A DNA stretch of 64,000 nt, from the NCBI GenBank assembly GCA_013177825.1, contig JABLXX010000001.1, positions 396,936-460,935 on the forward strand. The letters are read 5' to 3'. The translations under genes and the position numbers were made by a program. Of this stretch, positions 5,376 through 28,843 are shown piece after piece. Position 1 is the first letter of the stretch. Every line of letters starts with the position of its first letter. Origin of the DNA: Syntrophaceae bacterium. GTDB taxonomy: Bacteria; Desulfobacterota; Syntrophia; Syntrophales; PHBD01. The notes under the pieces were generated by a model that was not told the origin of the DNA, searched no databases, and worked only from the letters and a program-made list of their open reading frames with translations.

Positions 5376-5376
5376 G

Positions 5377-6372: not shown

Positions 6373-6433
6373 GAATCGCAGCTTCCTGCCCCGGACGGGG
6401 CGAGGGAAGTCAATCATTTCAAAGGTGGCATAC

Positions 6434-8353
6434 ATGAAACCGGTTGCATTCAGCAGTTGGAACGGCAAGATCATTGACGGCCGCAAGGGTCAGCCCAAAG
6501 GGAAGGCCGGAGCGGCGGACATCGGTTGTCCCGTCCCGAAGGAAGGCCAGAAAATGTCGGCCCTCCTGGGATGGAACGGCCTGGTGGTACTGGACAAGGA
6601 CGCGGACATTCCCTCCCTGACCCTGGCCTACCTGAAGGAAGCCCGGAAGCTGTCCTGCGGAGAGTGCTCCGTCTGCATGATCGGCATCGACCGGGTGACG
6701 GACCTCCTGAAGGACATGGCGGCCGGCAAGGCCGACAAGGGAGCCCTCGGGGAGATCGAGGAGATCGCAAAGGGCGTAGCCAAGAACGGCAAATGCAATT
6801 TCGGCCGGGCTACCGCCCTGACGCCGGTACTCGACGCGATCAAACACTATAAGAACGATTTCCTGGCCCTCGCCAAGGGCGGGAAGCTGGAAGAAAAAGC
6901 CTGCTCGGTCGCCGTAACGGCTCCCTGCATGCAGGCCTGTCCGGCCACGCTGGACATCCCCGGCTACATCGAGCTGATCCGGAACGGCCGCTTCGCCGAC
7001 TCCCTCAACCTGATCCGGGAGCGGTGCATCCTGCCCGGGGTCATCGGCCGGGCCTGCACGCATCCCTGCGAGAGCGCCTGCGTCCGGAACGACATCGACG
7101 AGCCCCTGGCCATCCGGCTTCTGAAGCGGAGCGCCGCGGATGCGGATCTCCAGTCCGGCGGCTGCGGCCTCGCGGCCCCGAAAGAAGAGAAGAAGCAGAA
7201 GGTGGCCGTGGTGGGATCGGGACCCGCGGGCCTGGCGGCGGCTTACCGCCTGCGCGCCCTGGGCTACCCGGTGACGGTGTTCGAGGCCCTGCCCAAGGCC
7301 GGCGGCATGGCGGCGGTGGGCATCCCCGATTACCGCCTCCCCAAGGATATCCTCAATCACGAGATCGATCTCATCCGCCGCACCGGGGTGGACGTCCGGC
7401 TGAACAGCCCGGTCAGCCCCCTCGACTGGGCGGACCTGCAGAAGAAAGGCTACGGCGCCCTCTACCTGGCCGTCGGCGCCCACGTGGGCACGAAGGTCGG
7501 CTGCGGCGGGGAAGACGTAAAGGACGGCGGCTTCATCCAGGGCGCCGAGTTCCTCCGGAACCTGAGCCTGGGCGCAAAAGTAACGCCCCTGAAGAAGGTC
7601 GTCATCATCGGCGGCGGCAACGTCGCCCTCGACTGCGCCCGGAGCTGCATCCGCTTCGGATTCAAGGACGTGGAGATCCTCTACCGGCGCTCCCGCAAGG
7701 AGATGCCCGCCAGCGCGACGGAGATCGAGGAGGCCATGGAGGAAGGTGTGAAGTTCACCTACCTGGTCGCCCCGGCGAACATCGTCCGGCAGGGCGGCAA
7801 GGTAACGGGCGTCGAGTGCCTCAAGATGAAGCTGGGCGAGCCCGACGCGAGCGGCCGGCGGCGCCCGATCCCGGTGAAGGGGTCCGAGTTCGTCGTCAAG
7901 ACGGACCTGATCATCGCCGCCACGGGCCAGAAGCCCGACACGGCGTTCCTGTCCGGGAAGAGCAAGGTCGGCCTGACCGACTGGGGCACCATCAAGGTAG
8001 ACGAGGCCACGCTCCAGACGAACGTCCCGGGGGTCTTCTCCGGCGGCGACTGCGTCAGCGGCCCGGCGACCCTGATCGAGGCGCTGGACGCCGGCAACAA
8101 GGCGGCCAGGAGCATCGACGCATACCTGGCGGGAAAGGCCGTCGCCCCCGAGCTGTCGCTCAAGGGTCTCGACACGAAGGCCCAGCGGGACAGCGGCTTC
8201 ACGGCGAAAGCCGGCGCCGCCAAGGCGGCCCTTCTGAACCCGAAGGAGCGCACCGCGGTCTTTGCCGAGGTGGAGGCGGGCCTGTCGGCCGCCGACGCCA
8301 TGAAGGAAGCGGCGCGCTGCCTGCGCTGCTATCGGCTGATGGTGTGGGAATAA
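6434..8353 (+). CDS. NAD(P)-linked FAD/Fe-S oxidoreductase (NuoF-type cluster domain + GltD-like)
   Basis: 639 residues in three parts. Residues about 70-145 match the C-terminal N3-cluster domain of NuoF: CGECSVC with a fourth cysteine in GKCNFG, but no FMN/NADH Rossmann domain precedes it. Residues about 160-230 are the Fe-S-binding N-terminus of glutamate synthase small subunit (CMQACPATLDIPGY...CTHPCESAC). The rest is the GltD-type tandem Rossmann fold: VAVVGSGPAGLAAAYRL for FAD, VVIIGGGNVALDCARS for NAD(P), and a closing GVFSGGDCVSGPATLIEA. It should pass electrons between NAD(P)(H) and the 2-oxoacid oxidoreductase or ferredoxin. ATG 6434 was chosen over GTG 6425 because AAAGGTGG lies at 6421-6428. 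A similar FAD subunit occurs in phenylglyoxylate:NAD oxidoreductase. Confidence 0.82.
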   Translation: MKPVAFSSWNGKIIDGRKGQPKGKAGAADIGCPVPKEGQKMSALLGWNGLVVLDKDADIPSLTLAYLKEARKLSCGECSVCMIGIDRVTDLLKDMAAGKADKGALGEIEEIAKGVAKNGKCNFGRATALTPVLDAIKHYKNDFLALAKGGKLEEKACSVAVTAPCMQACPATLDIPGYIELIRNGRFADSLNLIRERCILPGVIGRACTHPCESACVRNDIDEPLAIRLLKRSAADADLQSGGCGLAAPKEEKKQKVAVVGSGPAGLAAAYRLRALGYPVTVFEALPKAGGMAAVGIPDYRLPKDILNHEIDLIRRTGVDVRLNSPVSPLDWADLQKKGYGALYLAVGAHVGTKVGCGGEDVKDGGFIQGAEFLRNLSLGAKVTPLKKVVIIGGGNVALDCARSCIRFGFKDVEILYRRSRKEMPASATEIEEAMEEGVKFTYLVAPANIVRQGGKVTGVECLKMKLGEPDASGRRRPIPVKGSEFVVKTDLIIAATGQKPDTAFLSGKSKVGLTDWGTIKVDEATLQTNVPGVFSGGDCVSGPATLIEALDAGNKAARSIDAYLAGKAVAPELSLKGLDTKAQRDSGFTAKAGAAKAALLNPKERTAVFAEVEAGLSAADAMKEAARCLRCYRLMVWE

Positions 8354-13563: not shown

Positions 13564-13581
13564 CAATCAGGAGTGAAACAG

Positions 13582-15543
13582 GTGAAAATTTCGACCATTC
13601 TCGATCACATCGACGGCGGTCATATGGCATTGCCTGAATTTCAGCGAGGCTACGTCTGGAACCGCGACCAAGTTCGCGGATTTTTTGATTCGCTTTACCG
13701 TCGTCATCCCGTGGGGGGGCTCCTGGTGTGGGCCACCGAGTCCAATTCGGCTACCCATCGCGGTGACGGCCGGCTGGCAGCGGGTATCGTAAAACTTCTT
13801 CTCGACGGGCAACAGCGTATCACTTCGCTTTATGGAGTTGTCAGAGGAAGACCGCCAGAGTTTTTCGATGGGAATGCGCAGGCTTTTACAGGCCTTCGGT
13901 TTCATCTTGAGACTGAGACGTTCGAATTTTACCAACCGCTGAAAATGCAGGATGACCCACTCTGGATTGATGTCACAGAACTTTTGATGAAAGGCACAGC
14001 CGGGCTTGGCGAATTTGTTGGTCGCCTGACTTCTCAATCGGCCCTCTCTGACAAAGTCGGCGAATATGTCGGACGCCTTAGTCGCTTGCTCGGAATCATA
14101 GATATCGTTCTACATGTGGAAGAAGTTACAGGAACCGACAAGTCGCTGGATGTTGTCGTGGAGATCTTCAACCGGGTTAACAGCGGAGGCACGAAACTCT
14201 CGAAGGGTGATCTGGCCCTGGCCAAGATTTGTGCGGATTGGCCTGAGGCCCGTGACACCATGAAGAGTCATCTCAAGGGTTGGGCTAGCGCGGATTACCG
14301 TTTCAACCTCGACTGGCTGCTTCGCTCCGTGAACACGGTGTTAACCGGAGAGGCGAAGTTCCAGTTCCTGCATGACAAGAACGCGACGGAGATTCAGGAC
14401 GGTTTGAAACGGGCCGTCAAGCACATCGACACCTGCCTGAACCTGATCAGCGGAAGACTGGGCCTTGACCATGATCAGGTCTTCTTCGGTCGTTTCGGAG
14501 TGCCGGTGATGGTTCGCTATCTCGACCAACGAAGCGGCCTGTTGGACGAGAAGGAACGAGACAGGCTGATGTTCTGGTTCGTTCAAGCAGGCATGTGGGG
14601 GCGATTCTCCGGATCGACGGAATCCTACATTGACCAGGACTTGGCAGTGCTGGAAGGAAACAAAGATGGCTTGGATAAGCTGTTAAAACAGTTGCGTCTC
14701 TGGCATGGCGGCCTGCAGGTTGAACCAGGACATTTTACTGGCTGGAGCCTGGGTGCCCGTTTCTATCCCGTTCTTTACATGCTGACAAGGATGGGACAGG
14801 CACGGGATTGGGGGACAGGACTCCCTCTGAAGGCCAGTTTGCTCGGGAAAATGAGTCATCTTGAAGTGCATCATATCTTCCCGAAAGCGAGGCTATACAA
14901 GCACAGCTACAAACGCCCGGAAGTCAATGCCGTGGCCAATTTCTGCTTCCTTACCAAAGACACAAATCTCAGCATCAGCGACCGGCTGCCGGAGGACTAT
15001 TTCCCAGAAATTGAGAAAGCGCATCCCGGCGCCTTGGCATCCCAGTGGATTCCGACGGATCCTGAGTTGTGGAAGATAGCGAACTTCCGTGATTTTTTAG
15101 AAGCTCGAAAAATACTCCTGGCGCAGGAAGTAAACAAGCAAATGGAAGAATTGCTGCACGGTGACACACGCTGGCTTGTAGGTCCTGTAACTGCCGTTCC
15201 TGCAGCCCCAGTAATCGTTGGAGGAATTACAAGCGAAGAAGAGGAAGAACAGCTCGAAGCCTTGAACCATTGGATGGAAGATCAGCAGCTTCCTCGTGGA
15301 ATACTCGCTTATGATTTTTCCGATTCGGACACAGGTCAACAGAGGGCCGTATTCGATCTGGCATGGCCGAATGGCATCCAGGCAGAACTCAGTCAGCCGG
15401 TTGCTGTGCTTTTAAATGAAGGAACGGAAGTACTTGCTATAGCGAGCCAAGCCGGATTTCGTTTTTTTACGAATGTGTCTGACTTTCAAAACTACGTAAA
15501 GACGGAGATTTTGGGGCTGGATCAACAGCTTGGGGTAGCGTAG
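13582..15543 (+). CDS. GmrSD-type single-chain DUF262/HNH (DUF1524) nuclease
   Basis: 653 residues. The N-terminal DUF262 (GmrS-like, ParB-fold) domain shows LPEFQRGYVW and the LLLDGQQRITSLYG motif; the C-terminal DUF1524 (GmrD-like) domain has the HNH signature LEVHHIFPKARL (H430, H431) with a later Asn in NAVANFCFLT. Proteins with both domains act as NTP-dependent type IV restriction enzymes on modified phage DNA; the same architecture is also found in BrxU. GTG 13582 was preferred to GTG 13573 because AGGAG at 13569-13573 gives it an 8-base spacer. It stands alone, before the type I operon. Confidence 0.85.
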   Translation: MKISTILDHIDGGHMALPEFQRGYVWNRDQVRGFFDSLYRRHPVGGLLVWATESNSATHRGDGRLAAGIVKLLLDGQQRITSLYGVVRGRPPEFFDGNAQAFTGLRFHLETETFEFYQPLKMQDDPLWIDVTELLMKGTAGLGEFVGRLTSQSALSDKVGEYVGRLSRLLGIIDIVLHVEEVTGTDKSLDVVVEIFNRVNSGGTKLSKGDLALAKICADWPEARDTMKSHLKGWASADYRFNLDWLLRSVNTVLTGEAKFQFLHDKNATEIQDGLKRAVKHIDTCLNLISGRLGLDHDQVFFGRFGVPVMVRYLDQRSGLLDEKERDRLMFWFVQAGMWGRFSGSTESYIDQDLAVLEGNKDGLDKLLKQLRLWHGGLQVEPGHFTGWSLGARFYPVLYMLTRMGQARDWGTGLPLKASLLGKMSHLEVHHIFPKARLYKHSYKRPEVNAVANFCFLTKDTNLSISDRLPEDYFPEIEKAHPGALASQWIPTDPELWKIANFRDFLEARKILLAQEVNKQMEELLHGDTRWLVGPVTAVPAAPVIVGGITSEEEEEQLEALNHWMEDQQLPRGILAYDFSDSDTGQQRAVFDLAWPNGIQAELSQPVAVLLNEGTEVLAIASQAGFRFFTNVSDFQNYVKTEILGLDQQLGVA

Positions 15544-15741: not shown

Positions 15742-17856
15742 GTGTCACAACTCGAACATATTGAAGCGATTGAAAAAAGGCTCTGGACCGCAGCGGATAC
15801 CCTGCGGGCTAATTCCAATTACGCCAGCAACGAATACTTCCTGCCTGTCATGGGGCTCGTCTTTCTGCGCCACGCCTACAGCCGCTATCTGGCCGTGAAA
15901 GACACCATCGAAGCGAACCTTCCCACACGCGGCGGCAAGACAAGGCCGGTCACCAAAGCAGACTTCTCGCAAAAGAGCGCCATCTTTCTCCAACCCAAGG
16001 CCCAGTTCGATCATCTGGTCGCGCTGACCGACAGCGACGACCGGGCCACGGCCATCATCGATGCAATGAAGTCCATCGAGGAGGACTATCAAAACCTAAA
16101 GGACATACTACCGAAGGGTGAATATAAGGAGCTCGACAACGCTGTCCTCGGCCAGCTCTTGCGCACCCTCAATCCGGAAGAACTCAAACAGGTCTCGGGC
16201 GACGTGTTCGGCCGCATCTATGAATACTTTCTCACCCAGTTCGCCGACCAGAAGGCTCATGACGGCGGCGAGTTCTTCACCCCCGTCTCGCTGGTATCGC
16301 TCATCGCCAACGTACTTGCGCCGGAGGGTGGCATCGTGCTGGATCCGGCCTGCGGCTCGGGCGGCATGTTCGTCCAGAGCGCCCGCTTCGTCGAGCGCCG
16401 CCACGAAAACCCGGTGGACAGGCTCACCTTCTTCGGCCTGGAGAAGAACGCCACCACCATCCGCCTGGCCAAGATGAACCTCGCGGTCCACGGCCTGGAA
16501 GGCAACATCCAGAAGGCCATCACCTACTACGAAGACCCCCACGAGTTGCTGGGCAAGGCCGATTTCGTCATGGCCAATCCGCCCTTCAACGTGGACGAGA
16601 TCGACGCCGACAAAGTCAAGAGCGACCCGCGCCTGCCCTTCGGCCTGCCCGGCGTCAACAAGAAGGGCAAGGTCCAAAACGGCAACTATATCTGGATAAG
16701 CTACTTCTACAGCTACCTCAACGACCATGGCCGGGCGGGATTTGTCATGTCCAGCCAGGCCTCCAGCGCCGGGCGGGATGAAGCCAAGGTCCGCCAGCAA
16801 CTGGTCGAGACCGGCGACTTGGATATCATGATCGCCATCCGTTCCAACTTCTTCTACACCCGCACTGTTCCCTGCGAGCTCTGGTTCCTCAACCGCGCCA
16901 AGCCCGAAACGCACCGCGACAAGGTGCTGATGATGGACGCCCGCAACATCTACCGCAAGGTCACCCGCAAGATCTACGACTTCAGCCCGGAGCAGGAGCA
17001 GAATATCCTGGCCATCGTCTGGCTCTATCGGGGCCAGACCGAGCGCTATCTCGACCTCGTGGCGCGCTATTGCTGGCGCATGCTGATCGAGGGCGCAGCT
17101 TGCTTCACCGCCCAAGATGATGACGGCGGTTCAATCGAACTACTGCCGGATTTTATTGCATCGCTGGCAAAACTGCGCAGTGCCATCGAGCCGTTCCTCA
17201 AGAACCTGGACAAGGACGCGCCCCATGTCGAGGCGCTCAAGGAACTGGACGACGCCATCCCGATGTTCAAGGCGGACATGGAGGTGTTTCGGAAGGCCCT
17301 TACCGAACAGCAGGCGGCATGGGCGAAGCAAAAGACGACCAATGGTGAATTAAAGAAAGCCGTGGATCGTCTGGCGCCGCTCGCCGAAAGCAGTCGCGAT
17401 CTGGTCAAGCAAACGGACATGATCTACAAGCTTGCCTGCCGCCTGATTGATACTTGCGAGAACGAATGCGCCGCCAAGGGCAGCGAAGACTGGGCCAATC
17501 GTGAGATCAACCGCGCCCGCAAGGCCGCCGATGAGGCCCGCGCCCTGGCGGTGGAACAACTCAAGCAGGTCCGCTACTTCTGGCGTCAGGCCCACTGGCT
17601 CACCGAACGCTTCCCCGAGGCCGAGCTTCGCGATGTCGAAGGGCTGGTCAAATTGGTGGATCGGGCCGAGATCGAGGCCAAAGACTGGAGTCTCACCCCG
17701 GGCCGCTATGTCGGCGTCGCTCCTGAAGAAGAGGACGAGAATTTCGACTTTGAGGAGACATTGCGCGATATCCATGTTGAACTGGAGGATCTGAACGCCG
17801 AGGCGGTACAACTGGCTGCGACGATTAAGAAGAATTTCGAGGAGCTGGGGGTATGA
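15742..17856 (+). CDS. hsdM: Type I restriction-modification DNA methyltransferase subunit
   Basis: 704 residues. N-terminal HsdM_N helical domain (about 8-140), then the N6-adenine methyltransferase domain with motif I VLDPACGSGGMFVQ and motif IV NPPF (MANPPFNVDE). A long C-terminal part (about 430-704) is rich in charged coiled-coil sequence, as in the longer HsdM class, and probably contacts HsdS. Starts at GTG 15742 after AAGGAAAG. Overlaps hsdS by 4 bp (ATGA), so the two are translationally coupled. Methylates the host target and forms the M2S core of the type I complex. Confidence 0.92.
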   Translation: MSQLEHIEAIEKRLWTAADTLRANSNYASNEYFLPVMGLVFLRHAYSRYLAVKDTIEANLPTRGGKTRPVTKADFSQKSAIFLQPKAQFDHLVALTDSDDRATAIIDAMKSIEEDYQNLKDILPKGEYKELDNAVLGQLLRTLNPEELKQVSGDVFGRIYEYFLTQFADQKAHDGGEFFTPVSLVSLIANVLAPEGGIVLDPACGSGGMFVQSARFVERRHENPVDRLTFFGLEKNATTIRLAKMNLAVHGLEGNIQKAITYYEDPHELLGKADFVMANPPFNVDEIDADKVKSDPRLPFGLPGVNKKGKVQNGNYIWISYFYSYLNDHGRAGFVMSSQASSAGRDEAKVRQQLVETGDLDIMIAIRSNFFYTRTVPCELWFLNRAKPETHRDKVLMMDARNIYRKVTRKIYDFSPEQEQNILAIVWLYRGQTERYLDLVARYCWRMLIEGAACFTAQDDDGGSIELLPDFIASLAKLRSAIEPFLKNLDKDAPHVEALKELDDAIPMFKADMEVFRKALTEQQAAWAKQKTTNGELKKAVDRLAPLAESSRDLVKQTDMIYKLACRLIDTCENECAAKGSEDWANREINRARKAADEARALAVEQLKQVRYFWRQAHWLTERFPEAELRDVEGLVKLVDRAEIEAKDWSLTPGRYVGVAPEEEDENFDFEETLRDIHVELEDLNAEAVQLAATIKKNFEELGV

Positions 17857-19061
17857 AAGGCGCCTCAAAAAAAACTTTAGACGACGTATGTGAATTCATT
17901 ATTGACTGCTTACATGCTACGGCACCTGTGCAAGACGAGGGCTATCCTCTCATACGTACGCCAAATATTGGACGCGGACGTCTCCAGCTTGACGGCGTCT
18001 ATCGTGTTTCGGAAGATACCTACACAAAGTGGACACGTCGTGCTACGCCGATGGCAAATGACCTGATCCTTGCCCGTGAAGCACCAGCAGGTAACGTGGC
18101 CATCGTCAAAAATGGGCAAACTGTCTGCTTGGGGCAAAGAACTGTTCACCTTAGGCCAGATCCTCAGATGGTTGATCCTGACTTCCTCTGCTACTTTCTG
18201 CTTGCGCCGCCACAACAGGGACTTCTTCTCGCTGGCGAGACAGGAGCGACTGCCAAGCACGTCAACATGAAGGATATTCGCCAGTTATCATTGAGACATA
18301 TGCCTAGATTGGAAGAGCAGCGGCGCTCTGGGCGAATATTGGCCGCCTATGATGACCTGATCGAGAACAACCGACGGAGGATTCAATTGCTGGAGCAGGC
18401 AGCGCGGCTGCTCTACAAGGAATGGTTCGTCCACCTCCGCTTCCCCGGCCATGAACACACCAAAATCACTGACGGTGTGCCGGAGGGGTGGGAGAAGATC
18501 ACTATTGGAGAATCGGCCTCTTTTTTAAGTCGAGGTATAACTCCAAAATATGACGACAATGCACCAGGGCTTGTTATCAACCAGAAGTGTATAAGGAATC
18601 GAATGGTAAGCCTTGATCTAGCCCGTCGACATTCTAATCAAGTGCCTTCAACAAAGATTGTTCAATTCGGAGATATGTTGATCAATTCTACAGGTGCGGG
18701 AACACTTGGTCGGGTTGCTCAGTTCTTGTATGAAGCTGATGGATACACAGTTGACTCACATATCACGATTGTCCGTCCCCGAGAGGACATCCCAGTCCAC
18801 TACTTCGGTTTGTGCTTAGCGAGTTTAGAATCTTACATTGCGACATTAGGCCGTGGTGCGACTAACCAGACAGAACTTTCAAAAGACGATATTGCCGCGC
18901 TTGAGATAATCCGCCCATCATCCGGCCATGCACAAATGTTCGAAAAAAAAGTGGCACTATTTTTTCGTCAAATTTATATTTTATTGGGACAGGTTAAAAA
19001 GCTAAGCCAAGCCCGCGATCTACTTCTCCCGCGCCTCATGAACGGCGACTATGCGGTATGA
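17853..19061 (+). CDS. hsdS: Type I restriction-modification specificity subunit
   Basis: 402 residues with the expected two target-recognition domains, each followed by a conserved helix: TRD1 about 1-165 then ILAAYDDLIENNRRRIQLLEQAARLLYKEWF; TRD2 about 205-370 then the helix ending LSQARDLLLPRLMNG. Each TRD reads one half of a bipartite DNA target. The second half is clearly AT-richer than hsdM, consistent with TRD exchange. It is followed after 28 bp by the AAA-ATPase gene, not by hsdR. Confidence 0.9.
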   Translation: MKGASKKTLDDVCEFIIDCLHATAPVQDEGYPLIRTPNIGRGRLQLDGVYRVSEDTYTKWTRRATPMANDLILAREAPAGNVAIVKNGQTVCLGQRTVHLRPDPQMVDPDFLCYFLLAPPQQGLLLAGETGATAKHVNMKDIRQLSLRHMPRLEEQRRSGRILAAYDDLIENNRRRIQLLEQAARLLYKEWFVHLRFPGHEHTKITDGVPEGWEKITIGESASFLSRGITPKYDDNAPGLVINQKCIRNRMVSLDLARRHSNQVPSTKIVQFGDMLINSTGAGTLGRVAQFLYEADGYTVDSHITIVRPREDIPVHYFGLCLASLESYIATLGRGATNQTELSKDDIAALEIIRPSSGHAQMFEKKVALFFRQIYILLGQVKKLSQARDLLLPRLMNGDYAV

Positions 19062-19089: not shown

Positions 19090-20058
19090 ATGGCGACTGC
19101 TGAACAGATAAAATCCCTGATTCGCTCCTATCTCGGAGATGACCCCGAGCGTTTCTACTCGATCGCTTTGCAGATGGCTGCTCACGAGGCCAAACAGGGC
19201 CATATAGCCTTGGCTCATGATATACGCGACATCGTGGACAAGGCCAGGAAGGCCAAAGGGGCAGTAATCCTGCAGTTTCCAAAGGACATGTTGGGTCTGG
19301 TGCTCTCCGAGAGGCCAGATATTGCCAAGTCTGCCCTAGTGATTCCCACAGCCCTCGAAGAACGCATTGCACGGATCATTAACGAATATAGGCAACAGAA
19401 CAAACTCAAGGCCTATGGTTTGACACATCGCCGGAAAGTGCTGCTGATCGGCCCGCCTGGCACGGGCAAAACCATGACTGCTAGGGTGTTGGCGCATGAA
19501 CTGCACTTGCCGTTGTACACAATCCAGGTAGACCGTCTAGTCACCAAGTTCATGGGAGAAACTGGCGCCAAGCTGCGCCAGATATTTGACCTCATTAAGA
19601 GTGAAGAAGGTGTGTATCTTTTTGATGAATTTGATGCCATTGGTGGAGAGCGATCCTTTGAAAACGACGTGGGCGAGATGCGCCGCGTCCTGAATTCCTT
19701 TTTACAATTTATCGAACAGGATTCGTCCGACAGTCTAGTAGTAGCCGCAACCAACAGCCCAAGACTTCTGGACCGAGCACTTTTCAGGCGATTTGATGAC
19801 GTACTGTACTACGAACAGCCGACCGATAAAGAACGTAAGCGTTTGATAGAAAATATTTTAGGAACCTATTTGGCCTCTCGCTTTACTTGGAAGCAGGTGA
19901 TTGATGACAGCAGCAATCTGAGCCATGCTGAGATCGACCAAGCATGCCGCGATGCCATTAAGAATGCCATTTTGATGGAACGAAAAAAGGTGAATGCGTC
20001 CGAATTGCTCGACAGACTAAATGAGCGCAGGGACGCACGCAAAGGGCTGCGGGAGTAA
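19090..20058 (+). CDS. ietA: AAA+ ATPase, IetA-like
   Basis: 322 residues. The ATPase core shows Walker A GPPGTGKT (K127), Walker B YLFDEFDAIGG (D179, E180), a sensor Asn in VVAATNSPRLLDRALFRRFDD with arginine-finger candidates, and a small C-terminal lid. An N-terminal helical region of about 85 residues precedes it. It has its own strong ribosome site (GAAAGGAGG). Paired with the subtilase gene 6 bp downstream, it matches the ATPase-plus-subtilisin defence pair reported as IetAS. The ATPase presumably unfolds or recruits a target, or gates the protease; this is inferred. Confidence 0.8.
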   Translation: MATAEQIKSLIRSYLGDDPERFYSIALQMAAHEAKQGHIALAHDIRDIVDKARKAKGAVILQFPKDMLGLVLSERPDIAKSALVIPTALEERIARIINEYRQQNKLKAYGLTHRRKVLLIGPPGTGKTMTARVLAHELHLPLYTIQVDRLVTKFMGETGAKLRQIFDLIKSEEGVYLFDEFDAIGGERSFENDVGEMRRVLNSFLQFIEQDSSDSLVVAATNSPRLLDRALFRRFDDVLYYEQPTDKERKRLIENILGTYLASRFTWKQVIDDSSNLSHAEIDQACRDAIKNAILMERKKVNASELLDRLNERRDARKGLRE

Positions 20059-20064
20059 TATTTA

Positions 20065-22584
20065 ATGGCGGGGAATCGGCTTTCACACATTGTTCTTCGG
20101 GATAGGCCTGAAAACACTGACTTTATCAGCGCCCGATCCAGTGGTGGGGGAAGGAGCATCCCGTCGCGTCAGCGCGACTCACATAGCGCCTATTTAAAAA
20201 GTAGATTGGAACAGGCGTGGCGATCAGTTGAAGACGAACGCGCGGTTGCTCACATCGAACGTGATGGCGTGTACATTGAATTCAAAAGCGATCCTGGTGC
20301 TGATCTGGTGACCAAAAGCCTCGAGGATATGAAGTCCAAGAAGGTACGTTTGCTTAATATCAGGACCGAGAAGGAGACAATTACTGACGATAAAACAAAT
20401 CAACCGAAAGAAGTGGTCACTACTTACGCGACGGTTTTTATTGCCAATGAAAAGAAAGAGCACTTCTTAAAAAAGATAGAGGAATATGCTGAACAGGACA
20501 CTCCGAAGGGCCATTGGAAGAACGCCGATCTAATTAACAGTATTGCGGATATTAGAAAAGCACTGGCGATTGATTCATTCTGGCAGGACGATAAATCATT
20601 GATCCCTGGTGACACGCCCAACTGGTGCGAGATTTGGTTGAGTAACGATACGGAGGAAGTCATATCCCGTTTCAATAATCTTTTAAACCGGTTGGAGATC
20701 CCATCAAAGAATGGCATTATCCGGTTTCCAGAACGGGCTGTTAAGGTTGTGTTGACTAATCGAGCGCAGTTGGAGCAGCTTTCGGCGTTGTCCGATGACA
20801 TCGCTGAATATCGTCTGGGCAAAAGTACAGCCGAATTCTGGACTGGGTTGCGAAACAAGGACCAGGCCGAATGGGTACAAAATCTGCTGAAAAGAACAAG
20901 ATATGAGCAGTCACCGGGTGTTTCCGTGTGTCTCCTTGATACCGGTGTGAACCATGGTCATCCACTCATTTCGCCGGTATTAAGCGATGGCGACTGCCAG
21001 GCTGTAGATTCGGCTTGGGGATCCCACGATCACGATAAACACGGTACCCTTATGGCAGGGGTTGCCGCCTACGGCGATTTGGTCAAAGCCCTGTCGGGCA
21101 GTGGACCTATCTATCTCAGGCACTGCCTTGAATCGGTCAAGATCCTTCCTCCGGTCGGTTCGAATCCAACCGAATTATGGGGATACGTCACATCGCAAGG
21201 TGTCAGCCTGTCTGAAATCGAGGCGCCTGATCGAAAGCGTGTCCATTGTATGGCTGTGGCTGCCGATGACACCCGTGACCGAGGTCGTCCAAGTTCCTGG
21301 TCCGGGCAACTGGATCAGATCATAGCTGGTACAGATGATGATATAAGAAGACTAATGATCGTGAGCGCTGGCAATACAGACCCGTCCGGCTGGGCACAAT
21401 ATCCAGCTGCCCAACTAACCGACTCAATTCACGATCCGGGCCAATCGTGGAATGCATTGACGGTTGGCGCCTACACGAAGATGGATACGATTCTGGACCC
21501 ATCGCTTCAAGGCTATAGCCCAGTCGCTCCCCAAAGTGGGCTTTCTCCCTTTTCAACAACATCTTTCTGCTGGGAAGACAATAAGTGGCCGATCAAACCG
21601 GAAATCGTTTTGGAAGGTGGTAATGCGGCGCGCGATACGAGCGGCTTCACAACAGAGTGCGATGATCTATCACTGCTCTCCACATATTACAATCCTCTGA
21701 CAAGCCATTTTCATCCATTTAATATGACAAGCGCTGCCACTGCTCAGGCCGCCTGGATGGCTGCTCAGATTCAGATACAGTACCCGGATCTCTGGCCGGA
21801 AACGATTCGTGCCCTTGTCGTGCACTCAGCCAATTGGCCGGACGGCCTTTGGAATCAGTTTTCTGGTGATGGATCCAAGACCGCTATAAAGAAACTGCTT
21901 AGCACTTGCGGCTATGGTGTACCGAACCTGGAGCGAGCACTGTTCAGTGCTTCGAATTTTCTGACCTTGATTGCACAGGCTGAGCTTAATCCGTTTGACA
22001 AGAAAAGAGATGATACAGGTAATGCGAAATCTGGTTACCGAACCAAGGACATGCACCTATATGAGTTGCCTTGGCCCAAGGAAGTGTTGCGCAGCATGCC
22101 AGATCATATAGAAGTGGAGATGAGGGTCACGCTCTCTTATTTTATTGAGCCTGGTCCGGGCGAAATCGGCTGGCAGGACCGTTATCGCTATGCATCCCAC
22201 GCATTGCGTTTTGATTTGAAATCTCCCACTGAAACCAAAGAACAGTTTGTCAAGCGCATCAATAAAGCAGCCAGGGAAGAAGAAGAGGGACATCCTGGTA
22301 CACAGAGCGCTTCTGACCACTGGAAAATTGGCCAAGCGCGAAACAGGGGTTCCATTCATTCAGATATTTGGCAAGGGACAGCATCCGAATTGGCGGAATC
22401 CAATATTATCGCCATTGCCCCTCGCATTGGCTGGTGGCGCGAGCGCGCTCATCTGGGGCGATGGAACCGCAGGGCAAGGTATTCCCTGGTGGTTTCAATC
22501 ATGACACCGGAAGAACGCATCGATGTGTACACACCCGTTGCCAATCAAGTCGGAATCAGCGTGCCGATTGAAGTCACCACGTGA
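20065..22584 (+). CDS. ietS: Subtilisin-like S8 serine protease, IetS-like
   Basis: 839 residues, no signal peptide, so intracellular. A roughly 280-residue N-terminal region of unknown fold precedes the S8 domain. The catalytic triad is complete: D292 (CLLDTGVNHGHP), H326 (DKHGTLMAG) and S556 (MTSAATAQAAW). A C-terminal domain of about 180 residues follows (beta-rich, about 660-839). It lies directly behind the AAA-ATPase gene and its stop is 13 bp from the hsdR start, so it is inserted inside the type I operon. Cleavage targets are unknown; such pairs restrict phage in experimental work on IetAS. Confidence 0.82.
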   Translation: MAGNRLSHIVLRDRPENTDFISARSSGGGRSIPSRQRDSHSAYLKSRLEQAWRSVEDERAVAHIERDGVYIEFKSDPGADLVTKSLEDMKSKKVRLLNIRTEKETITDDKTNQPKEVVTTYATVFIANEKKEHFLKKIEEYAEQDTPKGHWKNADLINSIADIRKALAIDSFWQDDKSLIPGDTPNWCEIWLSNDTEEVISRFNNLLNRLEIPSKNGIIRFPERAVKVVLTNRAQLEQLSALSDDIAEYRLGKSTAEFWTGLRNKDQAEWVQNLLKRTRYEQSPGVSVCLLDTGVNHGHPLISPVLSDGDCQAVDSAWGSHDHDKHGTLMAGVAAYGDLVKALSGSGPIYLRHCLESVKILPPVGSNPTELWGYVTSQGVSLSEIEAPDRKRVHCMAVAADDTRDRGRPSSWSGQLDQIIAGTDDDIRRLMIVSAGNTDPSGWAQYPAAQLTDSIHDPGQSWNALTVGAYTKMDTILDPSLQGYSPVAPQSGLSPFSTTSFCWEDNKWPIKPEIVLEGGNAARDTSGFTTECDDLSLLSTYYNPLTSHFHPFNMTSAATAQAAWMAAQIQIQYPDLWPETIRALVVHSANWPDGLWNQFSGDGSKTAIKKLLSTCGYGVPNLERALFSASNFLTLIAQAELNPFDKKRDDTGNAKSGYRTKDMHLYELPWPKEVLRSMPDHIEVEMRVTLSYFIEPGPGEIGWQDRYRYASHALRFDLKSPTETKEQFVKRINKAAREEEEGHPGTQSASDHWKIGQARNRGSIHSDIWQGTASELAESNIIAIAPRIGWWRERAHLGRWNRRARYSLVVSIMTPEERIDVYTPVANQVGISVPIEVTT

Positions 22585-22597
22585 ATGGGCGAAGATA

Positions 22598-25500
22598 TTG
22601 AGCAACTTTACAGAAGATACCCTTGTTCAACAAACCACGGCAGAATACCTGGAGCAGAAGCTCGGTTGGCAGTCCGTCTATGCATACAACAACGAGGACT
22701 TCGGGCCTGATAGCCTTCTAGGGCGGGCATCGGACCGTGAGGTGGTGCTCACGCGGTCGTTACGCAAGAAGCTGACGGAACTCAACCCCGGCATGCCCGA
22801 CGAGGCTTATGACGATGCCGTGCGGCAGATCGTGGCGATGACGGCGATGCAATCGCTCATTGCCACAAACCGCGATAAATACAACCTCATCCGCGACGGC
22901 GTGCAGGTAGCCTTCCGGAACGGCAAGGGCGAACTGGTGAAAGAACGCCTGCGAGTGTTGGATTTCAAATATCCGCTCAACAACGACTTTCTATGCGTTC
23001 GGGAACTGTGGGTGCGGGGCGATCTTTACCGCCGTCGGGCCGACATCGTGGGGTTTGTTAATGGGCTTCCACTCTTGTTCATGGAGCTCAAGACGGTTGG
23101 CAAGGATGTCCGTGTCGCCTATGAGAAGAATTTCAAGGATTACAAGGATACCGTGCCGCACCTTTTCCACCACAACGCGATTGTGGCACTGGCTAACGGT
23201 GTGGAAGCAAAAATCGGCTCGGTGACCAGCCGGTTTGAGCACTTCCATGAATGGAAGCGCCTGGCTGAGGATGAACCGGGCGTGGTGGACATGGAAACGC
23301 TGCTCAAGGGTGTTTGCAGCAAAGCAAATCTCATTGATATCGTAGAGAATTTTATCCTCTTTGACGACTCGACAGGTGAAACCAAGAAGATCCTGGCCCG
23401 CAATCACCAGTTCCTCGGCGTGAACCGGGCCATCGAAGCGGTGCGCGACAGGACAAATCGCAACGGAAAACTGGGCGTTTTCTGGCACACCCAAGGGGCG
23501 GGCAAGAGCTACTCGATGGTTCTGTTTACTCGAAAGGTACACCGCAAACTGGGTGGCAATTTCACCTTCCTGGTGCTGACCGATCGTGATGATCTGGACA
23601 CACAGATTTACAAGACCTTTGCCGGCTGCGGAGTCGTGGATAACGACCGCGAGCCCTGCCGGGCATCCAGCGGGGAGCACTTAGCCCGTCTTCTTTCAGA
23701 GCACAAGACGCATATCTTTTCCCTGATCCAGAAGTTCAACCGGGACGTAGAACCAAACCAGCCTTATTCTCCGCGAGACGATATTATCGTCATTACAGAC
23801 GAGGCGCACCGCACCCAGTATGGGACGCTGGCCCTGAACATGCGCAACGCCCTGCCGAACGCCTCCTGCATTGGCTTCACCGGCACGCCGCTTTTCAGTG
23901 ACGACGAAATCACCAAGAGGGTCTTTGGCGATTACGTTTCGACCTATGACTTCCAGCGGGCGGTGGAGGACAAGGCCACCGTGCCGCTCTACTACGATGC
24001 CCGCGGCGACAAGCTTGGCGTCTCGGTGGGCGACCTCAACGAACGCATCGCCGCCAAACTGGAGGAACTGGAAACCGCCGACATCGACGTGGCTCAGCGG
24101 CTCGAAAAGGAGCTTAAGCGCGATTACCACGTCATCACCGCTGACAAACGGCTGGATCAGGTGGCCCGCGATTTCGTGGATAACTACTCCAAAGCCTGGG
24201 AAACCGGCAAGGCCATGCTGGTATGCATCGACAAGATTACCTGCGTGAAGATGTATAACCGCATTGCCCGATATTGGGAGGAACGGATCGCTGAACTCAC
24301 GGCTGAACTGGCAGCGATCAAAGACGAGCAGGAAGAGCAGTATCGCAAGCGGCAGATTGCCTGGATGCGCGAGACCAGAATGGCGGTGGTGGTCAGCGAA
24401 GAGCAGGGCGAGGTGGAGAAGTTCCGCAAGTGGGATCTGGACATTACACCGCATCGCCGCCTGCTCAAAGACGGAATGGAGCTGCCTGAGGCGATGCGTC
24501 AGAAGCCGCAGTTCCGGTCCATGCAGCGGATGGATGTGGATGAGGCCTTCAAGGAAGAAGAGCATCCGTTTCGCATTGCCATAGTCTGCGCCATGTGGTT
24601 GACGGGTTTCGACGTGCCGTCGCTTTCGACGCTGTATCTGGACAAACCGCTCAAGGCGCACACGCTGATGCAGGCCATCGCCCGCGCCAACCGTGTGAAC
24701 GAAGGCAAGAACAACGGCATGATTGTGGATTATTGCGGCATCCTCAAGAACCTGCGAAAGGCATTAGCCACCTTTGGCGGGACAGGCGACACAGGACGCC
24801 CAGGCGAAGGCGGAGAGAACGAACCGGCCAAACCGGATGATGAACTGCTGGCCGACCTGGCAGAGGCCATCGCATTTGTCAGAGCGTTTCTGACTGAGCG
24901 GAGCGCGTCACTGGACGACATCATTCTTAAGAAGGGCTTTGAACGCAACGCTGCCATTATCGCCGCAAAGGAAGCGGCCAATGAAAACGACGAGACACGG
25001 AAACGATTCGAAGTAATGTGCCGAGCAGTCTTCTCGAAATTCAGGGCCTGCCTCACGGTGGCGGGCGTCAACGACTACCGCCGGGATTACGAGGCGATCA
25101 ATGTCGTTTACAGAAGCCTGCAGGAGGACCGCGAAAAAGCGAATATAAGCGATATCATTCAACAACTCCATAAGGTGGTGGACGAGGCGATCGAGACCAA
25201 GGGGTATGTTGTTAGCGCAGAAGAACGCGCCCCCTATGACATCAGCAAGATCGATTTTGACAAGCTGCGAACGGAATTCGAACGGAGCCGGACCAAGCGC
25301 ACAACGGTTCAGAACCTCAAGACGGCCATCGAATCGCGACTCCAGCGGCTGCTTGAGCAGAACCCTTTGCGAACGGACTTTCAGCACCACTATGAACAGA
25401 TCGTGGCCGAGTATAACCGCGAGAAAGATAGGGTAACCATCGAGAAGACCTTTGAGGCACTTCTGGTGTTCATAGACGGTATGAGCGAGGAAGAGCGTCG

Positions 25501-25849
25501 TGCCGTTCGCGAAGGACTTGATGAGGAATCCCTTGCGGTCTTTGACCTTCTGAAAAAAACGGACCTCTCGGCGGACGAGATTAAGCGCATCAAGACGGTT
25601 GCGGTCGATTTGCTCAATACGCTCAAGGCCGAGAAACTGCGCGTCACTCGCTGGCAGGACAAAGAAGCCACCCGAGATGGCGTCCGACAGGCCATTTTGG
25701 ATTTCCTGTGGAACGAATCAACCGGCCTGCCAGTGGACAACTACACGGAAGACGATGTGAAAGACAGGGCCGACGACGTCTATCGTCATGTGTATCGTGT
25801 GTACCCAACGCTCCCGTCGCCATATTACCAGTCCTCAGCGGCAGCGTGA
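22598..25849 (+). CDS. hsdR: Type I restriction endonuclease motor subunit
   Basis: 1083 residues starting at TTG 22598, which gives the classic LSNFTEDTLVQQTTAEYLE opening; an open frame continues upstream but lies inside the protease gene. The N-terminal nuclease domain has D (RRADIVGF) and LLFMELK for the D...ExK site. The SF2 helicase motor shows HTQGAGKSYSMV (motif I), ITDEAHRTQ (DEAH box), GFTGTPL (motif III) and later QAIARANR (motif VI). A C-terminal helical region contacts HsdM. It is the last gene of the run, separated from hsdMS by the AAA/subtilase pair. Confidence 0.93.
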   Translation: MSNFTEDTLVQQTTAEYLEQKLGWQSVYAYNNEDFGPDSLLGRASDREVVLTRSLRKKLTELNPGMPDEAYDDAVRQIVAMTAMQSLIATNRDKYNLIRDGVQVAFRNGKGELVKERLRVLDFKYPLNNDFLCVRELWVRGDLYRRRADIVGFVNGLPLLFMELKTVGKDVRVAYEKNFKDYKDTVPHLFHHNAIVALANGVEAKIGSVTSRFEHFHEWKRLAEDEPGVVDMETLLKGVCSKANLIDIVENFILFDDSTGETKKILARNHQFLGVNRAIEAVRDRTNRNGKLGVFWHTQGAGKSYSMVLFTRKVHRKLGGNFTFLVLTDRDDLDTQIYKTFAGCGVVDNDREPCRASSGEHLARLLSEHKTHIFSLIQKFNRDVEPNQPYSPRDDIIVITDEAHRTQYGTLALNMRNALPNASCIGFTGTPLFSDDEITKRVFGDYVSTYDFQRAVEDKATVPLYYDARGDKLGVSVGDLNERIAAKLEELETADIDVAQRLEKELKRDYHVITADKRLDQVARDFVDNYSKAWETGKAMLVCIDKITCVKMYNRIARYWEERIAELTAELAAIKDEQEEQYRKRQIAWMRETRMAVVVSEEQGEVEKFRKWDLDITPHRRLLKDGMELPEAMRQKPQFRSMQRMDVDEAFKEEEHPFRIAIVCAMWLTGFDVPSLSTLYLDKPLKAHTLMQAIARANRVNEGKNNGMIVDYCGILKNLRKALATFGGTGDTGRPGEGGENEPAKPDDELLADLAEAIAFVRAFLTERSASLDDIILKKGFERNAAIIAAKEAANENDETRKRFEVMCRAVFSKFRACLTVAGVNDYRRDYEAINVVYRSLQEDREKANISDIIQQLHKVVDEAIETKGYVVSAEERAPYDISKIDFDKLRTEFERSRTKRTTVQNLKTAIESRLQRLLEQNPLRTDFQHHYEQIVAEYNREKDRVTIEKTFEALLVFIDGMSEEERRAVREGLDEESLAVFDLLKKTDLSADEIKRIKTVAVDLLNTLKAEKLRVTRWQDKEATRDGVRQAILDFLWNESTGLPVDNYTEDDVKDRADDVYRHVYRVYPTLPSPYYQSSAAA

Positions 25850-25985: not shown

Positions 25986-26525
25986 ATGGATGTAAATAGA
26001 AACATGCTTTGTAATATTGACGACTTGTGGTTCCTTCTAAGGAAGCATCTCGAGGGATCGGTCTTCTTGGACTCATATCCAACAGAATCAGCCTTTGAGA
26101 GTGATGTCTGGGAGAGCGTTGTCAAGGTAGCCGAACATATTGGGCTGAATAAAGAGGTTGCGTGCTTGACGTCGCATCGGACGAATCCCGACCGATCGCC
26201 TGTATACTGGAAAGAGTTCTGTAAACAAGAAAAAGGTCCTGACGTCAATGTCTTAGGATCGAATAACCGTTTGGATATTGTTTTCAAGCATCCGGAGTAC
26301 GGCTCAATTGGCATCGAGGTAAAGTGCCTTGGAACAAAAGGGCATGCTGCGAAGTTGACGCAGGGTATCGGGCAAATGTTTTTGGCCTTGGCTCACCGCG
26401 ACCGGACAATCCTCGTTATTCATTGTGGAACCGTTAGCTCTGCAGAAAAACAGCGATTACGAGAGGTTGCTGAAGAAATATGCAAAGAGACAAGAACGGC
26501 AGTTATTGTTGTTCCAACGAAATAG
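25986..26525 (+). CDS. PD-(D/E)XK-fold protein of unknown function
   Basis: 179 residues. The core RLDIVFKHPEYGSIGIEVKCLG supplies D and E-V-K with a following KLTQGIGQMFLALAHRD, where the Gln is the fifth conserved residue in many PD-(D/E)XK nucleases. Upstream helices are rich in charged residues. Base composition is AT-richer than hsdR. It stands alone 136 bp behind hsdR, and its 3' end faces the AbiE toxin gene. It may be a solitary restriction-like or repair nuclease acquired with the island; no closer family is recognised. Confidence 0.6.
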   Translation: MDVNRNMLCNIDDLWFLLRKHLEGSVFLDSYPTESAFESDVWESVVKVAEHIGLNKEVACLTSHRTNPDRSPVYWKEFCKQEKGPDVNVLGSNNRLDIVFKHPEYGSIGIEVKCLGTKGHAAKLTQGIGQMFLALAHRDRTILVIHCGTVSSAEKQRLREVAEEICKETRTAVIVVPTK

Positions 26526-26698: not shown

Positions 26699-27703
26699 TC
26701 AGGATTTGCGCCGCTTAGGTGAGCCGTCCCCCTTTCCCGGCCTGGCCGGCCGTGCCAGGTATTTCCGTACGTTTTCCATCTTCCACAGGATCGCCGGATG
26801 AGCGCCGATGCGCTCTGCCTCCTTGGGATCATCCGGAAAGAGAAGCTCGGATCGCAGCTCTCCCTTCTGGACGGCGGTGATGAATTCTTCTTCATGGGGC
26901 TGCAGGATCAGAAACCCGCTCAGAGCAGCCCAGGCGCGCTCACTCAGCTCTTTCCTGTCCGGCGAGACACCCGCCAGAAGGGGGGCAAGCCGCTCCTCCG
27001 CATCCCGGTCGGTCATGCCTGCCTCAAGACGGTCTCGGGTATAGGTCGTCAGCGGGTGTTCAAGAATGGATGCCAGGGCGACGAACCAGCGCCGAAAGAG
27101 GATCGATTGGAATACCTCTGTTGACGGCGGCGGAGGATAAGCCACATCCCAGACGTCGCGCACCGCTCCGCGATCGAGCAGGGCCAGAAGCTTGCCGATG
27201 AGGATCTCCCCCAGGCCGGCCACCCGAATGGAAGGGCGATCCAATTCACCGGGCTGCCAGAGCTCGCGCACCTCGGTTCCGGCGATCGGCATCCGGAAGA
27301 GGAAATTCAGATCCACCTCGATCCTCTCCTCCGGCCCAAGAACCGAGCGGTAGAGAAGATAGAACTTGCGTCCGGCATAGGCATCGGCCGACTGCTGCAC
27401 GCGATACCCTTGACGCCGGGCCAGATCGAAAACGGCCTGCTCCACCACCGGTCGTGCCTCCAGCATGGCCGTCCGGTCGAGCTGCCCCACATAATTGTAA
27501 TCGAGATCCACGGAGAGCCGTTTGGGCGGGCCGAAACAGAGGTTGAAGGCCGTGCCGCCTTTCAGGGCAAGCACCGCCCCGAGAAGCGGGTGCCGCCTGA
27601 TATCAGCCGCCATCTCTCCGAGACGGACCACCTTTTCCAGCGGTTCGATCCGATACCCGGTCTCATTGGCGCAGCGCCTCAGGTATTCCAGGCTAACGTT
27701 CAT
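26699..27703 (-). CDS. AbiEii-type nucleotidyltransferase toxin
   Basis: 334 residues. The nucleotidyltransferase signature is clear: LKGGTAFNLCF then KRLSVDLDYNY (GG/S...DxD), with a third acidic site in RIEVDLNF. AbiEii toxins are type IV toxins that modify nucleotides or tRNA ends to stop growth during phage infection. The start codon overlaps the antitoxin gene's end by 11 bp, typical of the pair. The 173 bp between its stop and the PD-(D/E)XK gene hold nothing clear. Confidence 0.85.
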   Translation of the reverse strand: MNVSLEYLRRCANETGYRIEPLEKVVRLGEMAADIRRHPLLGAVLALKGGTAFNLCFGPPKRLSVDLDYNYVGQLDRTAMLEARPVVEQAVFDLARRQGYRVQQSADAYAGRKFYLLYRSVLGPEERIEVDLNFLFRMPIAGTEVRELWQPGELDRPSIRVAGLGEILIGKLLALLDRGAVRDVWDVAYPPPPSTEVFQSILFRRWFVALASILEHPLTTYTRDRLEAGMTDRDAEERLAPLLAGVSPDRKELSERAWAALSGFLILQPHEEEFITAVQKGELRSELLFPDDPKEAERIGAHPAILWKMENVRKYLARPARPGKGDGSPKRRKS

Positions 27704-28508
27704 CAGGCTCCCCCGACGATAATAGCACCTTGGGAAGGATCAGGTTCCAGCGCCCGACAAGGAGACCGCCCCTCTGTCCCCGTTCGACGTAGGCCCGTGA
27801 ACGCGGTCGGTGTTGCTCCATGCGGGCGAGAAGCGCATCAGGCACATGGAAGCTCTTCTGAAACGTCTCCAGGAACCACCCTGTCGCCGCCCAGAGCTTT
27901 GCCATGTCATACCGGCGCAGGATCTCCTCCAGGAGTTCAAGATCGAGGGTCGTGAATCCGGCGGCAGAATGGACCAGTTCCTCCAGTCCTCCGGCCAGCG
28001 ACGGTCGGCTGAACCCCTCGACCAAGGTGCGCTCGGGGCCTGTGACTTCCAGCAGTTTTCCCAGGCGCTCTATCCGCCGTGTGCCGAGCTGTTTGCCGGA
28101 GTCGCCCTTCATCGAAAGGGGAAGATCCAGGAAGCGGAGAGTTGCGTCTTCCAGTACCAGCGGCCGACGGCGCCTGGCGACATAAAGGGTGCACTGATTC
28201 CAAAGCGAATGTGCGGCTCCGAGCAGCTCCAGGGCGCTGTGATGAGAGAAGACGGCATCAGGATACATGGCACTTGCCACCAGAAAAGGATCGGGATGAA
28301 AATCTTTCGGGGACAGGGTCGGCGGCACAACGGCGTATATCTCGCGGGTGACGCGTTTCAGGCGGCCGGTCCTGAGGTGGTGCTTGAGCCGTTCGACGAC
28401 GCGCAACCGCTTTCCCTCCGGCATCAATGCCGCGGCAGCCTCATCAAGGGAGAATACCGGATGGGTGGCAAAGAAATCAGTGGTCTTTAGTTTTTGATCC
28501 GTGCTCAT
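27693..28508 (-). CDS. AbiEi-type antitoxin
   Basis: 271 residues from ATG 28508 (a TTG at 28547 would add 13). The N-terminal winged-helix domain (VFSLDEAAAALM...RLKHHLRTGRLKRVTREIYAV) is the DNA-binding part that represses the pair, and the AbiEi C-terminal domain (SAMYPDAVFSHHSALELLG ... LVEGF) mediates antitoxicity. It is upstream of and overlaps the toxin gene. The pair closes the defence island. Confidence 0.83.
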   Translation of the reverse strand: MSTDQKLKTTDFFATHPVFSLDEAAAALMPEGKRLRVVERLKHHLRTGRLKRVTREIYAVVPPTLSPKDFHPDPFLVASAMYPDAVFSHHSALELLGAAHSLWNQCTLYVARRRRPLVLEDATLRFLDLPLSMKGDSGKQLGTRRIERLGKLLEVTGPERTLVEGFSRPSLAGGLEELVHSAAGFTTLDLELLEEILRRYDMAKLWAATGWFLETFQKSFHVPDALLARMEQHRPRSRAYVERGQRGGLLVGRWNLILPKVLLSSGEPDER

Positions 28509-28843
28509 ATAGGTAACAAAATTCCCCGTATCAGTCCGAAACGTCAACTATGCAGTGGATTTGTCAGTTGGCAATACGTTTCACTATGGGTAGTTCTTTT
28601 ACCTGTTCGGCCACAATATGCAAGCAAAACTTTTTAGTGCAGAAGCAGCCTGAAGAAAAAGGATCCCTTTGTGGCTCGCGTCATGGAAGAGCCCATCACC
28701 ATGCTGATTAGAGGCGAGGGTGAGCTGCGAAGAACTGCTTGATAAAAGACTGCTCAAACCTTTCAAGGCCAAACCCCGGCAGATCCGTGGGGGTTCTGGG
28801 ACGTTTCTGTGGTATAGAGCGAGTCACCACAGGAGGGAATTCC
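28509..28843. other. Intergenic region with no clear gene
   Basis: Must contain the minus-strand AbiE promoter and the plus-strand promoter for the gene at 28844. Short open stretches exist in several frames but none has a ribosome site or recognisable product. No match to the 3' end of the tRNA-Asn gene was seen here, so no attachment site is supported. Confidence 0.5.

Follow-up and report, generated by a model that had tools for sequence, protein, structure and literature searches.

What is an ATPase-protease gene pair doing inside a type I restriction-modification (RM) operon, and does it work for that operon or only travel with it? We examined this question in a stretch of 64,000 nucleotides (nt) from Syntrophaceae bacterium (assembly GCA_013177825.1, contig JABLXX010000001.1, positions 396,936 to 460,935), hereafter the window, whose list of open reading frames (ORFs) contains a complete type I RM operon on the + strand, in the order hsdM-hsdS-[AAA ATPase-S8 protease]-hsdR. 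The two genes between hsdS and hsdR are, by their sequences, an IetAS-like pair distinct from the named NCBIfam equivalog. On balance, we think that the pair is probably exchangeable cargo at the hsdS-hsdR junction, that is, a toxin-antitoxin pair of the IetAS type that adds a second, suicide-type defence, shares the transcript of the RM genes and works without need for the Hsd subunits.

The operon opens with hsdM (15742..17856), which encodes a type I DNA methyltransferase subunit of 704 amino acids (aa; Pfam N6_Mtase and HsdM_N; PADLOC MTase_I, 871 bits), followed with a 4-nt overlap by hsdS (17853..19061), which encodes the specificity subunit of 402 aa (Pfam Methylase_S; PADLOC Specificity_I). 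The ietA-like AAA ATPase gene (19090..20058; 322 aa; Pfam AAA; PADLOC IetA) encodes the predicted antitoxin, and the ietS-like S8 subtilase gene (20065..22584; 839 aa; Pfam Peptidase_S8 at residues 285-618; PADLOC IetS) the predicted toxin, with the triad D292/H326/S556. The last gene, hsdR (22598..25849), encodes the restriction/translocase subunit of 1083 aa when read from TTG 22598 (Pfam HSDR_N, SWI2_SNF2 and a T1R_D3-like domain; NCBIfam hsdR at 485 bits, above the cut-off). The three hsd genes are complete and co-directional according to ORFs, Pfam and PADLOC, and the gene order places a second gene set of predicted defence role within them on the same strand. The spacing given in the initial annotation was found again: 28 nt between hsdS and the AAA gene, 6 nt between the AAA and S8 genes, and 13 nt between the S8 gene and hsdR, the last with hsdR starting at TTG 22598. 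An alternative start, ATG 22523 of the mechanical ORF, lies inside ietS and gives a 62-nt overlap with the S8 gene; the TTG start is preferred, though not proven, because the HSDR_N match begins at residue 4 of that form. A ribosome-site-like AGGAGG motif is located just 5' of the ietA-like gene. From this layout we infer that the five genes are most likely one transcript.

The assignment of the pair to IetAS, also proposed initially, was supported by the top PADLOC profiles, IetA (255.4 bits) and IetS (107.2 bits), and by the gene order, in which the AAA ATPase gene comes before the S8 subtilase gene on the same strand. The Walker and Asp-His-Ser motifs are complete as first described, and their residues are conserved across the aligned relatives. 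In particular, D292, H326, S556 and N437 of IetS were invariant in 127 out of 127 aligned rows, and G121, K127, E180, N222, R233 and R234 of IetA in 119 out of 119; T128 and D179 of IetA had one differing row each, both from loci without RM genes. An AlphaFold model of IetA (predicted local distance difference test, pLDDT, 85.5) had proteasomal, PAN and FtsH AAA domains as its best Foldseek matches. The IetS model (pLDDT 81.8) contained a subtilisin core, with KP-43 as the best structural match (Z 26.2, root-mean-square deviation 3.0, 379 aligned residues, model residues 284..812). For the first ~250 residues of IetS, which the structural match rows barely cover, we obtained no known fold; a strand-helix pattern in the model at residues 186-251 may be reminiscent of a subtilisin propeptide. 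A second IetAS was not found in the same genome, where the searches returned three other AAA matches at 28-35% and one IetS match only.

To see how often IetAS relatives are nested in this way, we surveyed 129 loci that were left after removing listed duplicates and IetS scores below 400 bits; 36 of the 129 were unassessable. The window itself stands outside this set, L019 is its near twin, and L070 and L245, both without RM-type neighbours, are one sequence counted twice. The loci came from a scan of genome contigs, in which the best 80 of 580 confirmed loci were kept and which is therefore biased to close relatives, and from genome samples of the order (155 genomes, 6 with a match), the phylum (395 genomes, 20 with a match) and three other phyla centred on loci of the survey (240, 294 and 296 genomes; 8, 11 and 13 with a match). 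Neighbours were labelled with iterated hidden Markov models (HMMs) that started from the window proteins. Single-sequence probes for Eco57I- and ISP-type genes joined the set after Pfam searches of chosen neighbours, so that "none" below refers to the searched kinds of gene only.

In 12 of the 129 loci the pair lay between an upstream HsdS and a downstream HsdR, all on the same strand. These strictly nested loci include Deltaproteobacteria and kin (L019, L021, L022, L026), Verrucomicrobia (L039), Planctomycetota (L041), Brocadiaceae (L055) and Lentisphaerae (L059). Another 7 loci were classed as IetAS with HsdR after it and a contig end upstream, although the order in L071 and L079 is in fact IetAS-hsdM-hsdS-hsdR and in L040 other genes come before hsdR, and 3 had HsdS upstream with the contig ending downstream (L222 and L238 of these also with hsdR upstream). 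The remaining classes were one pair between hsdM and hsdS, 4 other type I arrangements, 12 beside other RM-type genes and 54 with none. The arrangement thus recurs, and a unique insertion was rejected; because the same order returns in other species and phyla, we take the nesting to be more than chance. In L022, L033, L039 and L041 ietS and hsdR overlap by 1-4 nt. In L022 (Desulfosarcina cetonica) the ietA and ietS frames are both split while hsdM, hsdS and hsdR are open, which could be inactivated cargo or assembly errors.

We also drew 40 loci at random, disregarding their neighbourhood, from the phylum sample and the three other-phylum samples (four phyla). The draw omits the three centre genomes, the window's own genome, L235 (duplicate of L052) and 7 weak phylum-sample matches (29 to 80 bits), two of which, L132 and L133, are in hsd operons. 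Among the 36 assessable loci, type I genes on the same strand enclosed or adjoined the pair in 9 (3 strictly nested), genes of another RM type adjoined it in 4, and 23 had none; L233 and L234 nearly duplicate each other, L244 carries a degraded hsd locus, and L226 and L228 have hsdR directly after IetS with no hsdM or hsdS recognised upstream. If IetAS landed anywhere in a defence island, 3 strict nestings in 36 would probably be only mildly surprising. Finally, matches also occur in 486 plasmid records; the 7 plasmid loci that were viewed showed no annotated hsd gene in the stretch covered, for which the gene table is incomplete. Of the refuting outcome named in the initial annotation, a pair usually found alone and in a unique position here, one half holds, as the pair is usually found without RM genes, and the other fails, as its position in the window is not unique.

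The same junction was then viewed from the side of the hsd genes. We processed 42 loci from the phylum of the window, mostly the best of the listed HsdM matches, and dropped 15 as incomplete, which left 27; HsdM identity to that of the window ranged from 37 to 86%. The hsdS-hsdR junction contained IetAS in 2 of these 27 loci (L119 and L121), other genes in 17 and nothing in 8, counting as empty one locus whose gap of 1,460 nt has no long ORF on the same strand (L201). Four of the 8 empty junctions show a 4-nt overlap of hsdS with hsdR. A Pfam search of ten cargo proteins returned a DEAD helicase, an IS66 transposase, two AlbA_2/RecG-C proteins, a DUF4143-AAA protein, a GmrSD-AlbA_2 protein, HerA, RhuM, GmrSD and one without match. 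One genome (G473) carries two hsd copies of the window's RM family (L167 and L168) with HsdM ~86% identical to the window's, different cargo and no IetAS; one copy holds a helicase between hsdS and hsdR, the other IS66 together with an AlbA/Schlafen protein. These loci show the hsdS-hsdR junction to be a slot for cargo.

Single loci were compared in more detail. We first aligned the window with L019, from the same genus. The 5' half of hsdS with the first target-recognition region (window 17858-18457) was 52-68% identical, the stretch from the 3' half of hsdS through ietA-ietS 96-100%, hsdM 84-98% and hsdR 90-96%. On the alignment, the difference in the 5' half of hsdS is a replacement of a specificity domain within the genus. 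Nei-Gojobori dS was 0.32 for hsdM, 0.50 for hsdS, 0.09 for ietA, 0.025 for ietS and 0.25 for hsdR, and dN/dS was 0.07-0.15 for all operon genes but hsdS (0.52). These values fit recombination that ended within hsdS and around the start of hsdR and carried the cassette along, and purifying selection on the cassette. An inactive relic was rejected, given the intact catalytic residues and the dN/dS of 0.09 (ietA) and 0.12 (ietS).

Exchange at the slot is visible in other loci. L121 has HsdM and HsdR 85.1% and 78.2% identical to those of the window, but an IetS of only 54.5%; the closest IetS to it here is that of L047 (70.0%), in whose 11.7-kb contig no hsd gene was found. Conversely, L059 has very different HsdM (32.5%) and HsdR (28.4%), yet IetA and IetS are 67.7% and 56.4% identical. 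In an IetS tree of 12 strictly nested and 31 non-nested rows, nesting needed 11 changes, and 153 of 200 shuffles were as low. A tree of 53 rows (17 nested including contig-edge loci, 33 non-nested) needed 14 changes, at least 11 of them forced by starred branches, and 220 of 500 shuffles were as low; this was a quick LG+G4 tree with 15 of 49 inner branches open, in which L047 was set by hand as non-nested (it had been rated unassessable, with 2.7 kb downstream) and L226 as nested, and removal of L047, L226 and L245 gave 13 changes instead of 14. A lineage of nested IetAS only was rejected on these two trees; a larger tree, described below, shows clustering. Among type I-associated loci, tree distances correlated at 0.98 between HsdM and HsdR and at 0.81 between IetA and IetS, and at 0.62 (IetS-HsdM), 0.55 (IetS-HsdR), 0.35 (IetA-HsdM) and 0.29 (IetA-HsdR) across the two sets (permutation p <0.05 for all). 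The pair therefore coheres and the Hsd set coheres, with a looser tie between them; what is left of that tie may stem from host ancestry or from partnership.

Gene order, intact catalytic residues, recurrence and turnover of cargo at the junction are direct observations, and nesting in distant bacteria apparently results from defence genes swapped in and out of one operon slot. The roles of the two proteins are predicted here from relatives elsewhere. For sgiAT of SGI1, the protease is the toxin and the ATPase the antitoxin in E. coli, and sgiAT promotes SGI1 maintenance (PMC5006074). In JCVI-syn3A, loss of the ATPase gene of the _0132/_0133 pair alone was lethal and loss of both was not (PMC6755753), and the mycoplasma A132/T133 pair was confirmed as a toxin-antitoxin module (PMC8562856). 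By analogy, IetA would restrain the IetS protease; infection or loss of IetA would upset the balance, IetS would cleave cellular proteins and growth would stop, so that IetAS would form a second, suicidal layer behind restriction. Trigger, targets and independence from Hsd belong to the conjectural side of this proposal, and failure of the RM enzyme might set the pair off, by analogy with PrrC.

Several observations weigh against this reading. The pair scored below the NCBIfam equivalogs (IteA 217.7 bits, cut-off 510; IteS 48.9 bits, cut-off 900), and toxicity is therefore carried over from distant relatives. A scan for promoters and terminators was at chance level (10 promoter-like sites against 7.4 expected, 12 terminator-like against 10.8 expected), so that the one promoter of the initial proposal is only putative; two defences on one transcript is still the best reading. 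In the larger IetS tree, with unassessed rows counted as non-nested, 18 nested rows needed 12 changes against a shuffled mean of 16.9, and 0 of 500 shuffles were as low, which means clustering. Moreover, the IetS-Hsd correlations (r 0.55-0.62) had a permutation p of ~0.0004 and could reflect partnership rather than shared host history.

The main rival takes up that partnership: the Hsd complex, or its DNA-bound state, would hold IetAS dormant until an anti-restriction protein (Ocr, ArdA or Stp, for example) released the protease, so that phages able to beat restriction would set off suicide. The comparative data are compatible with such a hold by the Hsd complex without demanding it. The precedent, also for the backup switch triggered by anti-restriction proteins of the initial annotation, is PrrC, which lies inside the EcoprrI type IC hsd operon, is sequestered by the enzyme and is released on T4 infection (PMC3874165, PMC2610378). 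IetAS also occurs beside type III-like and Eco57I-type genes, that is, with several DNA-modifying partners, and among the loci nested between hsdS and hsdR alone the correlations were 0.60 for IetS-HsdR (p 0.0014), 0.55 for IetS-HsdM (p 0.035) and 0.40 for IetA-HsdR (p 0.027), although weak for IetA-HsdM (r 0.15, p 0.24). We nevertheless consider this guard unlikely, given the 23 of 36 random-draw pairs without searched RM genes in their run, the lack of a nested lineage in the 11- and 14-change trees and the very different Hsd set that accompanies a similar IetAS in L059. A protease acting on the restriction complex itself, the other option raised by the initial annotation, fared worse. Here IetAS would degrade HsdR or HsdM, as a restriction alleviation of the ClpXP kind that shields under-methylated host DNA; ClpXP controls type IA and IB enzymes through degradation of the R subunit (PMC3874165), an AAA protein and a protease in the operon could act alike, and the modelled IetA resembles proteasome, PAN and FtsH domains. 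Such a protease dedicated to HsdR or HsdM is very improbable, since hsd genes are missing next to most assessable relatives and hsd loci related to that of the window manage without the pair (other cargo in 17 of 27, an empty junction in 8). The relatives in plasmid records, the 7 opened plasmid loci, the absence of a nested-specific lineage, the loose tie to the Hsd phylogeny and the toxin-antitoxin nature of the studied relatives point the same way.

Two further alternatives dispense with a defensive partnership. As an addiction module, IetAS would keep the RM operon or island from being lost and have no part in defence here; the relatives in 486 plasmid records and the maintenance of SGI1 by sgiAT speak for it, and ietAS of pTiC58 reportedly determines plasmid stability, to judge from the title of Yamamoto 2009. 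RM systems can, however, be addictive on their own, and the content of the slot differs between close hsd relatives, so that the pair did not fix the arrangement; we regard this role as improbable. The other alternative is a recombination hotspot only, in which recombination in hsdS turns its 3' flank into an insertion point, where cargo lands with no selection for togetherness. It would account for the identity profile against L019, falling to 52-68% in one half of hsdS beside a nearly identical cassette, and for cargo as diverse as an IS66 transposase, and the site has been termed a potential recombination hotspot (PMC12255303). Against it, IetAS lies in the slot on the same strand and tightly packed, and 8 of the 10 Pfam-scanned cargo proteins have helicase, AAA, AlbA/Schlafen, GmrSD, HerA or RhuM domains. 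These domains are linked to defence. A neutral hotspot seems doubtful at best.

IetAS was also found beside other RM types. In L090, L095, L097 and L127, type III-like res and methylase genes precede the pair and a UvrD-like gene follows in one run; Pfam gave ResIII/RE_endonuc, N6_N4_Mtase and UvrD for L095, and the type III-like labels of the other three come from HMMs seeded with L095. L223 resembles L095, with one more gene (735 aa) and a UvrD-like piece of just 62 aa; in L045 the pair stands between an SNF2 helicase, before it, and an N6_N4 methylase, after it; and L215 and L233 have Eco57I-type genes just upstream. A broader proposal is that IetAS serves as a general fail-safe in DNA-modifying immune operons (type I at the hsdS-hsdR slot, type III-like as res-mod-IetA-IetS-UvrD, and Eco57I-type), its ATPase sensing the state of the modification or restriction enzyme and freeing the protease when phage anti-restriction disables that enzyme; we consider this quite unlikely. 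Separately, L132 and L133 have a more distant IetAS between hsdM and hsdS, another slot of the type I operon, and in L243 a protein with NACHT and FGE-sulfatase domains (4289-7102) is encoded directly after IetS on the same strand.

The operon of the window is part of a defence island, with a GmrSD_N-domain gene (13573-15543) on its 5' side and an AbiEi/AbiEii pair (26699-28547, minus strand) on its 3' side. L019 has kept the GmrSD gene and differs in the AbiE stretch. A 179-aa ORF after hsdR (25986-26525) had no Pfam, PADLOC or NCBIfam match at E 0.001.

Defence genes embedded in the hsd slot are a known kind of arrangement, and embedding in type I RM has been described as a previously reported trend (PMC12629846). 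Our literature searches found no published report of IetAS as an occupant of the slot; their coverage of work on embedded defences is incomplete, and priority is uncertain. What the present locus adds is a protease-based predicted toxin-antitoxin pair that seemingly moved into this slot on several occasions and across several phyla. Whether an embedded system is coupled to its RM host has been answered, among the papers cited here, for PrrC (coupled) and for TgvAB (independent of HsdR); hsd relatives that hold IetAS, other cargo or nothing at the junction are matched natural material for telling promoter sharing from a trigger by failure of the restriction enzyme.

The pair of the window is like IetAS, SgiAT and mycoplasma A132-T133 in its order of AAA gene and S8 gene, its short gap, its complete AAA and subtilase motifs and its PADLOC matches, and unlike them in scoring below the NCBIfam cut-offs and in lying inside an hsd operon instead of alone on a plasmid or island. 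With TgvAB, a two-gene pair inside the type I RM operon of Vibrio cholerae VPI-2 that protects without HsdR activity (PMC11411939), it shares the embedding of a two-gene predicted defence in an hsd operon, but TgvAB is a GmrSD-related modification-dependent restriction pair and the window has an ATPase and a protease. DarTG2 lies between hsdS and hsdR in enteropathogenic E. coli under the RptR repressor (PMC12255303), so that both are (predicted) toxin-antitoxin pairs in exactly the same slot; the toxin families differ, and control by RptR is reported for DarTG2. Finally, PrrC resembles the predicted suicide effector of the window in being embedded in an hsd operon, but is a single anticodon nuclease held latent by the Hsd complex, a coupling that would be conjectural for IetAS, and its linkage to an RM system is reported to be invariable (PMC2610378), whereas most assessable randomly drawn IetAS pairs had none of the searched RM genes in their run.

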